A stretch of 64,000 bases of DNA, from contig RSEH01000009.1 in NCBI GenBank assembly GCA_006503475.1, positions 62,001 through 126,000 on the forward strand, read 5' to 3'. The notes under the pieces are model-generated. The model was given only the letters and a program-made list of their open reading frames with translations, did not search any database and was not told the DNA's origin. Within the stretch, counting starts at the first letter, position 1; every line of letters starts with the position of its first letter. Shown one piece after another: positions 28,766-48,345 of this stretch. Position numbers and translations under genes: made by a program. This DNA comes from Stentor roeselii (lineage: Eukaryota > Ciliophora > Heterotrichea > Heterotrichida > Stentoridae).

Positions 28766-29434
28766 ATGGCTTTACTTCTTGACCTTCCTGACGACCTAGT
28801 CCTTAACTACGTGCTTCTTTTCATAGGCAAGGTCGAAGAAATCCTCATTCTTCGCGAAGTAAGTAAAAGCTTCAACGAAAAAATCGAGATGCTGCTTCTT
28901 GCCATCATCGAACTTGACCTAATAAAGCTGGAGTCTTTAAAATCTGACGAGCTCTTCACCAGCAAAAGGCCTCGGCTGGAAGAACTGGAAGATTTGATAA
29001 AATTTCAGAGTTTTCGCTTAAAATCATTGCCTTTAATTCAAACTCCTGAAAGTTTTGATTTGATGATTGGACAGGGACTGATGTGCCTTTCTCGAAACTC
29101 GATTAATTCAGAGCCTTTAGAAGAAATTGATTATTTTTTAAACTATACGATGATCACGGAACTTAAACAAGTGCTTTCCTTGGAATGCACTCGAGAAGTT
29201 CATCAAAAAGCGAATGAAATGTGTTTGAATGCCCTGGCATTGCCCGTGACAATCAACGAAAAGCAGCGAAAGCTGCTGAACTGGTTAACCGGTTCTCTAA
29301 AAATGTTAGAAATTTTTTTCAGTCTCGAGCCAAACTACCAAAACCTGCAAAAACTCAAAGAAATTCATGATTTTCACGAAAAACGAGTCAGACAAATCAG
29401 TCATCATTTCGGTGTATTCCAAACTTTTAACTAA
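28766..29434 (+). CDS. F-box-like protein
   Basis: The 222-aa protein begins LLLDLPDDLVLNYVLLFIGK and continues REVSKSFNEKI, the spacing of an F-box (LP..., L...V......S/K.F), which recruits SKP1 in SCF ubiquitin ligases. The rest is helical with no recognised substrate domain. Only 8 nt separate its stop from the next gene's ATG on the same strand, so the two may be co-transcribed. The F-box call is moderate because the motif is degenerate. Confidence 0.65.
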   Translation: MALLLDLPDDLVLNYVLLFIGKVEEILILREVSKSFNEKIEMLLLAIIELDLIKLESLKSDELFTSKRPRLEELEDLIKFQSFRLKSLPLIQTPESFDLMIGQGLMCLSRNSINSEPLEEIDYFLNYTMITELKQVLSLECTREVHQKANEMCLNALALPVTINEKQRKLLNWLTGSLKMLEIFFSLEPNYQNLQKLKEIHDFHEKRVRQISHHFGVFQTFN

Positions 29435-46124: not shown

Positions 46125-47057
46125 TTAAAACTGTTTAAGTTCAACAGCAGTTTCAAATATCTGCTCTGAGAAAACATAATGAGAAAAGCTAGTAACAATA
46201 AACCAAATCGGTATAACAAGACTCAAATACTGAATCCAAGCAAACTTCAAATTCTGCAAAAACAAAGGCTGATAAGCGACTTCCTGAAAAACCGGGACCC
46301 TAAGATTCAAATTAACCCGAGTACTGAGTCCATCTCCAGGAGCATAGCTAAAACTCTGGTAATCATAAAAAGTAGTTTCATTTCTATCCAAGTACCTTCT
46401 CAACATCTGTGTCCAAAATCCATCAACAGGTCGATCTAAACTAAACAAGCTTTCATTATAAACCTTTCTAACAATTTTCGAACTTTTCAAAGGTTTTCTT
46501 TGCCTAAGCTTCAAAACTCCATCAATAAAAACAGAAGAAGCTCCATTCGGTAAGTCAAGATCGACGATGGCTAAACAAGTCATGTCAAGATTGACTCTTT
46601 CTCTTAATCTGTAATCAAATTGAATGAAAAGCTTCAAATTTCTGATGTTTTTGGGAGACTCGTGAAGAGTTAAGTTAAAAGTGTAAATGTCTGGCTTTAG
46701 GTCTGCATTTTGGTCCAAGTAATTCGATTCAATGTCCACTGGGATCAGGTTCTTCGAATTTAACTCGGATATGACCCCTGATGTTGAATACAGTGAAGAT
46801 GTCAGGTTTGTGATTACTAAGTTGTTTGAAATCGACTTTGAGGAACTTAGAACTCCTAGAATTAACTCGTTTCGGTAGAGGACTATGGGCTGCTCGTAGT
46901 ATTCTAAAGCGCTTGGCCAGAAACCGTGAGTACTTGCTGATAGGAAAAAGGGAACGATTATAATCAGAAGGGTAAATAAGGAACATAGGAAGGTTGAACA
47001 TGAGCAAAAGTCCGCCCGGTATGTCCTTTCCACTATTTCTTTCAAAATTAGACCCAT
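46125..47057 (-). CDS. TMEM231: TMEM231, ciliary transition-zone membrane protein
   Basis: The 310-aa protein matches TMEM231 along its length: VERTYRADFCS at the N-terminus, a first membrane span at about 24-42, STHGFW, then YEEQ-like YYEQPIVLYRNELILGVL, a long extracellular region, and KFAWIQYLSLVIPIWF for the second span. TMEM231 is a core part of the B9/MKS complex at the ciliary transition zone, controlling entry of membrane proteins. Length fits the family (about 315). It is divergent from FHIT across 895 bp holding the candidate RNA. Confidence 0.9.
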   Translation of the reverse strand: MGLILKEIVERTYRADFCSCSTFLCSLFTLLIIIVPFFLSASTHGFWPSALEYYEQPIVLYRNELILGVLSSSKSISNNLVITNLTSSLYSTSGVISELNSKNLIPVDIESNYLDQNADLKPDIYTFNLTLHESPKNIRNLKLFIQFDYRLRERVNLDMTCLAIVDLDLPNGASSVFIDGVLKLRQRKPLKSSKIVRKVYNESLFSLDRPVDGFWTQMLRRYLDRNETTFYDYQSFSYAPGDGLSTRVNLNLRVPVFQEVAYQPLFLQNLKFAWIQYLSLVIPIWFIVTSFSHYVFSEQIFETAVELKQF

Positions 47058-47282
47058 TTAATTAATTAGATGGAAGATGGTATTAAAGAATTTTAGAATC
47101 ATTTTAGTTTATTAGGTGGAGGTTTACTAATTTTAAAGAAATTTGTATTTGTTTTAGTATTTTTGTAAGGATTAGGAATTTTTAGAATTTTTATGTTGGA
47201 ATATTTAGAAATGTTTATGTTAGAAAAGGCAGTTGGCTTAATGGTTTTTTAGGAATAGAGTATTTGGAAAATGGTGATAGTA
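47058..47282. other. Upstream spacer of TMEM231
   Basis: AT- and T-rich without coding frame; includes repeated TTTTTAGAATTTTTATGTT-like words. No recognised element. Confidence 0.35.
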
Positions 47283-47656
47283 TTAAGGGAAATCCATGGT
47301 TGTCAAGACAGATTTATTAAAAAACGTTAATTATTGGGAGCCTAACTAAAGGGGAATACTTCGGGGGATACCTGGGATCGGGAAGTATGCGGTTTTTATC
47401 TTTCTAAAAAACAAGAAAAAGAAAAAAAGAGCAGTGAGAAAGGAACGGGATAGTCCAGAGAAATAACCCGAGAGGGATATACCAGGGCACCTGATTTTCT
47501 AATTTATCTTCATTAATAAAAGTCATGAGGACGACTTTTAAGCCCTCATCATGAAAAATGAGAATGAAGACAATCGGAAAAACAGGGGCCCCGGTTGTTT
47601 TCTTTCTCTCTCTGGATTTTGAAAAAAAAAAAATAAAAACTATTTTTTTTTTCTAC
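47283..47656 (+). ncRNA. Candidate structured non-coding RNA, class not identified
   Basis: An island clearly richer in G+C than the flanks, with stops in all frames and several strong hairpins. They are 47356-47362 with 47382-47388 (ATACTTC/GAAGTAT), 47463-47469 with 47474-47480 closed by a GAGA tetraloop, 47517-47524 with 47533-47540 (8 bp), and 47566-47577 with 47591-47602 (12 bp with G-U). A run of ten T at 47643-47652 could end Pol III transcription on the plus strand. I compared it by eye with RNase P, MRP, SRP, U1-U6, U3, telomerase and group I introns and found no convincing match. Strand and ends are inferred. Confidence 0.45.
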
Positions 47657-47829
47657 CCCAAGATCAGGAACTATGTTTTCAAAAAGGATGAAATCCTTTT
47701 GATAAAGTTCATCCTTTTTCTTTTCTTTTCTTGTTTTTTTTTACTCTTTTCCAAGTCTTCAAGCCTGGCAAGCCAAGAGCGAAGCTTCCAGCGTATTTCA
47801 TTCAATCATCTTGATACTTTACTCCATTT

Positions 47830-47950
47830 ATAAAAACATTTTTCCGAACTTTTAAAAATCTTCAAAAAAATCTAAAAATTCTTCCAAATTCTAAAAATCT
47901 AAAAATCTTAAAAACTCCGAAGATCTAAAAATCATTTAAAAAATTCGGAA
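47830..47950. repeat. Simple TCTAAAAAT-type repeats before FHIT
   Basis: Imperfect repeats of AATCTAAAAATCTTC-like words fill the 120 bases before the FHIT start codon. Low complexity; could act as promoter spacer or be neutral. Confidence 0.5.
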
Positions 47951-47952
47951 TA

Positions 47953-48345
47953 ATGATAGTGAAATTCGGAAAATGGAACATTAAAGACTGTGAAATATTC
48001 TGGCGAGGTGAGAAAGCTTATGCGATGGTTAACACGAAGCCAGTAGTCCCTAACCACGTTTTAGTTTGTCCTTTAAGAGTCGTTGCAAATTTCTCTGAAC
48101 TAACTCCAGAAGAACTTCTTGAAATGAACTTCGCAATGACTCGAATTTTATCTTCTTTCGGGCCTTCTTCAGTCGCTGTTCAAGACGGTCGAGAAGCAGG
48201 TCAGACGGTTCCCCATGTTCATTTCCACATATTACCAAGAAGAGGAAGAGAAGTAAATGCAGTTGACTCTGACAGGAAGGAAAGAACTGATGCTGAGATG
48301 GCTGAAGAGTCGGAAACATTGAAAAATTTGATAAATTTCAATTAG
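47953..48345 (+). CDS. FHIT: FHIT-type dinucleoside triphosphate hydrolase (HIT family)
   Basis: The 130-aa protein has the HIT triad H88-V-H90-F-H92 in GQTVPHVHFHILPRR, the form typical of the Fhit branch, preceded by PVVPNHVLVCPLRVV and QDGREAGQ. Fhit enzymes cleave ApppA-type nucleotides through a His-AMP intermediate. Length and order fit the core of the family; the C-terminus is a little shorter than the human enzyme. It lies 11 nt upstream of the mucolipin gene on the same strand. Confidence 0.9.
   Translation: MIVKFGKWNIKDCEIFWRGEKAYAMVNTKPVVPNHVLVCPLRVVANFSELTPEELLEMNFAMTRILSSFGPSSVAVQDGREAGQTVPHVHFHILPRRGREVNAVDSDRKERTDAEMAEESETLKNLINFN

Follow-up and report, generated by a model that had tools for sequence, protein, structure and literature searches.

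A candidate non-coding RNA gene of a possible lineage-specific family in the ciliate Stentor roeselii

Genomic setting of the locus

The locus lies in a 64-kb stretch of Stentor roeselii DNA (contig RSEH01000009.1, positions 62,001 to 126,000), referred to here as the window and numbered from its first base. An 895-bp gap, fifth in length among 35 in a hand-chosen gene set in which several long gaps may contain missed exons, separates two divergent genes: one of the TMEM231 family on the minus strand (46125-47057; Pfam E 1.1e-51) and one with a HIT domain on the plus strand (from 47953; E 8.9e-20). Within this gap, 100-nt windows starting at 47300-47500 have a GC content of 0.37-0.42, compared with 0.19-0.32 for the flanking 100-nt windows across 47000-48000, apart from those starting at 47700, 47750 and 47950 (0.37-0.39). 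An AT-rich stretch ahead of the HIT-domain gene (47854-47931) is 78% alike to C65:62204-62282 (E 2.4e-7).

The genes of this genome carry 15-nt GTA...TAG introns and long open reading frames (ORFs) under the standard code, and a (CCCTAACA)n array opens one of ten contig starts examined. For the heterotrich Blepharisma, a published account (PMC9942806) reports the CCCTAACA repeat at telomeres, introns mostly of 15 and 16 bp and, in Blepharisma stoltei, UGA read as tryptophan. The CCCTAACA array, the 15-nt introns and the TMEM231-family neighbour agree with the ciliate origin assumed in a preliminary description of this DNA, and the standard code points to a heterotrich other than Blepharisma. 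A protein-coding gene with tiny introns is an unlikely occupant of the island, since no ORF of at least 120 aa lies inside it, no intron candidate of the 15-nt GTA...TAG type occurs in 47050-47960, and its best hexamer coding score is low (0.29, below 28 of 29 leave-one-out pieces from the hand-chosen gene set), although this score is not decisive: one gene piece scored lower (0.26) and three lay at 0.34-0.35.

The features of the locus are as follows; none is assigned to a strand.
47058..47952, unstranded: gap of 895 bp between the divergent protein genes, delimited by ORFs and Pfam matches
47404..47742, unstranded: whole predicted structured unit, in which an outer purine/pyrimidine stem (47406-47444/47712-47739) encloses a rod, an A/T hairpin and a small hairpin
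47449..47619, unstranded: core rod-like hairpin of 59 bp with regular 1x1 mismatches, based on predicted pairs and shuffle z
47507..47570, unstranded: predicted Y-shaped tip of the rod, with hairpins 47517-47540 and 47545-47562 on the stem 47507-47514/47563-47570, containing the ATGAGG and CCTCAT stretches
47593..47622, unstranded: 30-nt element GGTTGTTTTCTTTCTCTCTCTGGATTTTGA, common to G000:C94 (from 73679, plus strand) and G000:C410 (about 136971-136993, minus strand)
47624..47652, unstranded: hairpin of an A run and a T run including T10, 12 bp in the predicted fold
47668..47710, unstranded: small hairpin 3' of T10 in the predicted fold

Folding of the structured unit

The preliminary description had proposed a GC-richer structured RNA candidate with strong hairpins at 47283-47656. 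That interval (374 nt) has a folding z of -2.9, reached by 0 of 100 shuffles. Its left part, 47283-47448, carries no folding signal (z +1.15, equalled or bettered by 433 of 500 shuffles). The core rod, 47449-47619 (171 nt), reaches z -6.3 on the plus strand and -7.0 on the minus strand, with 0 of 500 shuffles as stable, and the longer unit 47404-47742 reaches -106.5 kcal/mol (z -7.3) on the plus strand and -113.1 kcal/mol (z -7.7) on the minus strand, with 0 of 120 shuffles as stable for each. The outer stem of this unit, taken alone, does not exceed what base composition yields (equalled or bettered by 37 of 500 shuffles). The strong folding signal of the island stands, far beyond shuffles, and its borders need changing: on the predicted folds, the structured unit is 47404-47742, with the 47449-47619 rod as its core.

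Across the 64-kb window, a scan of both strands folded 1502 windows of 170 nt against 24 shuffles each. The lowest z of all (-6.9) belongs to the window from 47431 on the minus strand, which overlaps the rod; 26 of the 1502 fall below -3, three of them at this locus. The second lowest value in the scan (z -4.7, plus strand) was found at 29241-29410, within the ORF 28766-29434.

On the plus strand the rod comprises 32 A-T, 23 G-C and 4 G-U pairs. Its 1x1 mismatches lie at 47484, 47489, 47494 and 47501, each with A on the 5' side, and two of the four are A-C oppositions. The short motifs on which the preliminary description had built are all present as described, letter for letter: ATGAGG at 47525-47530, CCTCAT at 47544-47549, ATGAG at 47558-47562 and T10 at 47643-47652, together with the palindrome GGGGCCCC at 47585-47592, which, in the predicted fold, belongs to the 3' arm of the rod instead of pairing with itself. 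The 8-bp hairpin with ATGAGG in its loop corresponds to 47517-47524/47533-47540.

These motifs had been read as competing helices, probably a switch. In the best plus-strand fold, the 8-bp hairpin and the CTCAT:ATGAG helix coexist (p 0.78 and 0.74), and the ATGAGG:CCTCAT pairing, which excludes both of these tip helices, costs 2.6 kcal/mol and has p of about 0.06. Because the two tip helices coexist and the alternative is minor, a switch is not the natural reading on the plus strand. The best minus-strand fold pairs the ATGAGG and CCTCAT stretches with each other, replacing the two-hairpin tip. A search for 8-bp hairpins whose loop contains a 6-mer complementary to a neighbouring stretch, a pattern defined only after it had been observed, found them in 13 of 2000 shuffled versions of the region and at one place in the 64-kb window. 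T10 had additionally been offered as a possible RNA polymerase III (Pol III) terminator, a role that is not supported: all ten T residues are paired with the preceding A run in the predicted fold, and the upstream element of the small nuclear RNA (snRNA) type in this genome is imperfect here.

A 30-nt element shared by three intergenic loci

A search of the genome assembly (44.4 Mb, 522 contigs) with 378 bases of the locus returned one further place, on contig C94, with 95% identity over 35 query bases (E 1.9e-7). A first 20-base pattern, allowing up to three mismatches, gave 14 places, among which a locus on C410 was recognised from its flanks. A second 20-base pattern, representing the invariant core, gave 15: the locus described here (C20) and C410 without mismatch, C94 with one, none with two and 12 with three. 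The same pattern read backwards as a control gave 10 places, so the 12 three-mismatch places are at control level; none of the 12 carries GGTTGTTT directly before the core, and 10 of the 12 lie inside open frames of at least 190 codons. The pattern search scores best candidates only, and three is therefore the number of loci found, not a proven total. The three copies of the element differ in length through a 2-nt insertion in C94 and a 1-nt deletion in C410.

The element is intergenic at all three loci. Its gene neighbours are divergent at C20, convergent at C94 (frames ending at 977 and 1783 of L002) and two minus-strand frames in tandem at C410; this difference in orientation argues for an independent gene and against an mRNA leader. 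The element occupies the 3' arm of the rod at C20 and precedes the folded domain at C94 and C410, at a distance that varies between loci. Pairing of its 5' half with the 100 nt upstream was matched or exceeded by 1, 462 and 179 of 500 shuffles at C20, C94 and C410, respectively. As this pairing is notable at C20 only, we rejected it as a hairpin common to the family.

Outside the element, local alignment scores between C20 and C94 lie within those of shuffles on both the left and the right. An alignment to the reverse complement gave a score of 36, and the downstream regions of C94 and C410 align weakly (score 41), both figures being uncontrolled. A gapped 25-base pattern of the element had no exact match in the viral_contigs or genome_contigs collections, and no similar DNA was found in the plasmids collection; none of these is a collection of eukaryote genomes, so these negative results carry little weight. 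A limited literature search did not turn up this RNA family, from which we claim nothing about its absence from print.

A predicted pseudoknot at two of the three loci

Downstream of the element, both other loci contain three predicted helices, a, b and c, in the order a-c-b-a'-b'-c'. At C94 (coordinates of L002) they pair at 1561/1618 (a), 1572/1656 (c) and 1594/1629 (b). At C410 (L017, numbered on its reverse complement) a hairpin at 1516-1536 comes after the element, and then helix a from 1539 with a' at 1580, c at 1551 with c' at 1630, and b at 1560 with b' at 1618, with a further hairpin inside at 1595-1617. Since a' lies within the loop of b and a precedes c, the predicted helices form a pseudoknot in both. 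The layout, whose criteria were set after both loci had been inspected, is absent from all 400 shuffles of each locus and from all 852 pieces of 150 nt from the window.

Across 23 hand-matched pairs, which cover 6 of the 10 pairs of helix a and 8 of the 9 pairs of helix b at C410, nine differ between C94 and C410 on both sides, one differs on one side and 13 are unchanged. The single one-sided change is C-G to C-A on the plus strand; read from the minus strand, it would give a G-U pair. Folding at C410 is strong over 1503-1640 (z -4.7 plus, -5.3 minus; 0 of 200 shuffles each) and lower over 1420-1700 (z -2.0 and -2.1). C94 is weakly folded, with z -2.1 on the plus strand (4 of 200 shuffles) and -1.3 on the minus strand (19 of 200) over 1550-1670, and z -1.3 on the plus strand (23 of 200) over 1496-1700. 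The minus strand is somewhat more stable at C20 and over 1535-1640 of C410; by energy it is not more stable over longer C410 stretches, nor is it at C94.

At C20, the C94-type pseudoknot is absent from both the rod and the stretch downstream. The A/T-rich downstream stretch produces the layout in 16 of 400 shuffles, so any match there would have meant little. C20 hence shares with C94 and C410 the 30-nt element and not the a-c-b-a'-b'-c' arrangement.

Comparison with known RNA families

No match at gathering score was obtained when the 64-kb window was scanned with 4227 Rfam families, which include the RNase P/MRP, signal recognition particle (SRP) and snRNA models that the preliminary description had proposed to run. 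Under permissive settings, stretches of 801 and 396 nt returned 23 and 18 rows with E no higher than 10; the best had E 0.41 and 0.2, and every row fell below its own gathering score, at chance level. ARAGORN found no tRNA in the window. Around C94 (1300-1900) Rfam returned one row with E 0.9, and over the whole C410 locus one row, SNORD78 (E 0.012; 31.3 bits, where the gathering score is 38), located within an adjacent protein gene and away from the element.

Five expected RNAs each have one match elsewhere in the genome: U6 on C196 (97.1 bits), RNase P on C97 (87.5), RNase MRP on C402 (73.1), SRP on C288 (95.5) and U2 on C18 (142.6). Identity of the locus with RNase P or RNase MRP RNA, SRP RNA, or U6 or U2 snRNA was rejected on this basis, none of the models having a match at the locus itself. 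The strong folding signal, the empty Rfam result at gathering score and the presence of these five RNAs elsewhere bear out the earlier view of a structured RNA candidate of no known class.

Several known systems offer partial likenesses. Like RNase MRP and nuclear RNase P RNAs (RF00030, RF00009), the locus would give a structured RNA of a few hundred nucleotides, and GGGATAGTCC at 47447-47456 resembles by eye the CR-I stretch of these RNAs, a resemblance only; unlike the genes on C97 and C402, whose scores exceed the cut-off, it is unmatched by Rfam. Ciliate telomerase RNA (RF00025) has in common with C94 and C410 a pseudoknot, preceded at C410 by a hairpin, but none of the three loci shows a template. 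Against (CCCTAACA)n, the longest match reaches 6 nt on either strand of C20 and on the plus strand of C410, 8 nt on the minus strand of C410, and below 6 nt at C94, whereas the window as a whole contains matches of 9 nt. Telomerase RNA is unlikely because no template was found. The sequence GATTTTGA, invariant in C20, C94 and C410, fits the Sm-site consensus; in contrast to Sm-site snRNAs, the locus lacks the TCCCATATYAAA upstream element, and no Rfam snRNA model matches in the window. Class I RNAs of Dictyostelium, an example of the lineage-specific non-coding RNA families of protists, are short and numerous and combine one short conserved sequence with variable stems over several loci. The present loci resemble them in being several, with a single short conserved sequence and variable stems, and differ in numbering three and in having longer folded domains.

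The snRNA-type upstream element

The element TCCCATATYAAA is perfect (12 of 12 positions) upstream of U2, U6, RNase P and SRP, and its best match in 47000-48050 is 9 of 12. The RNase MRP gene (L030, C402), unlike RNase P, also has a best upstream match of 9 of 12, and because of this the imperfect match at the locus cannot exclude a gene. By eye, a TA-rich box follows the full TCCCATATYAAA by about 18-19 nt at the U6, RNase P and SRP genes (L028, L029 and L031), and none is seen at this spacing at the U2 gene (L048). We label TCCCATATYAAA with the TA-rich box, judged by eye, a putative snRNA-type promoter code for this ciliate. The sequence AATCCCATATYAAA, with TA 16-21 nt further on, was found at nine distinct loci, compared with one match in the control. 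Six of the nine (L038, L040, L042, L043, L046 and L047) have no gathering-score Rfam match within about 3 kb; these six may be unknown Pol III genes, promoters of protein genes or sites that arose by chance. Upstream words common to C20, C94, C410 and the MRP gene amount to a few 8- and 9-mers whose order is not kept, with no expectation computed for their number.

Competing explanations

The main rival to an RNA gene is a foldback DNA element that has decayed, either an old MITE-like palindrome or a local inverted duplication, whose two arms would form the rod and in which the 30 nt would be a leftover or filler insertion; we consider this explanation somewhat unlikely, and it is the strongest of the alternatives. 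The folds of the two strands are about equally strong, as expected of an inverted repeat, and the G-U pairs and A-C oppositions of the rod are similar in number. Palindromic germline elements have also been described in Blepharisma (PMC9942856). However, the search (simple repeats skipped) found the arms nowhere else in this 44.4-Mb assembly, the 30-nt element aside, no target-site duplication was seen by eye, the element does not occupy matching arm positions in C94 and C410, and the tip has two hairpins of its own. A relic would also leave the both-sided pair changes between C94 and C410 unexplained.

A hairpin precursor cut by a Dicer-like enzyme, in which the element would represent a shared small RNA, or a portion of one, as microRNA families do, is improbable. 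The single long rod with regular mismatches would suit such a precursor, as would one conserved stretch opposite a variable arm, and 22-nt and 24-nt small RNAs are reported from Blepharisma (PMC9942856). Yet the core of the element lies in the 3' arm at C20 and pairs downstream in the C94 and C410 folds, the longer C410 fold pairs the 5' half of the element with upstream sequence, and the element varies by 1-2 nt in length. Furthermore, no other place on either strand has fewer than three mismatches to the 20-nt core, and thus no near-perfect target was seen.

Least probable, by a little, is a DNA regulatory site such as a promoter element with incidental folding around it: a short stretch near-exactly conserved amid divergent surroundings would accord with this, as would AT-rich stretches upstream at C94 and C410 that could by eye contain a TATA box, but three places only were found, C94 lies between convergent genes and so cannot be an mRNA promoter of its neighbours, the distance from element to folded domain varies, and the z of -6 to -7 at C20 is left unexplained.

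A possible lineage-specific non-coding RNA family

We rank above these three explanations the reading that 47404-47742 is a gene in its own right, as yet unannotated, for a non-coding RNA, and that it belongs to a lineage-specific family of which this genome carries three loci, a proposal we regard as evenly balanced between right and wrong. Counting for it are folding beyond shuffles, an element at three intergenic loci that stands well clear of chance matches, and the pseudoknot layout common to C94 and C410 with its both-sided pair changes. Conservation was compared among loci of this one genome. Counting against it are the lack at C20 of the C94/C410 pseudoknot, the different placement of the element, the weak structure of C94 and the lack of an snRNA-type upstream element.

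We infer that the unit is transcribed, from one or the other strand. The RNA would be an extended rod whose own ends close it, with the shared element in the basal part of the 3' arm. This element may be what does the work, by binding a protein or by base pairing, since no other sequence was found nearly unchanged at all three loci while the rest changes; the rod at C20 and the pseudoknot domain at C94 and C410 would then act as scaffolds that display it. More tentatively, the three loci may represent a new class of eukaryotic non-coding RNA, in which three paralogous genes carry a nearly invariant 30-nt site, two with a compensated pseudoknot and one with a 171-nt rod instead, as a fast-evolving scaffold RNA around a fixed binding site.

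To our knowledge, the non-coding RNAs of heterotrich ciliates have hardly been catalogued. Three loci with a shared element provide a direct and cheap test by RNA sequencing. Should the locus be a relic, it would illustrate the ease with which decayed palindromes can pass for RNA genes. A real family would add a structured RNA outside Rfam in which a single site is held fixed and the scaffold is rebuilt between paralogues.
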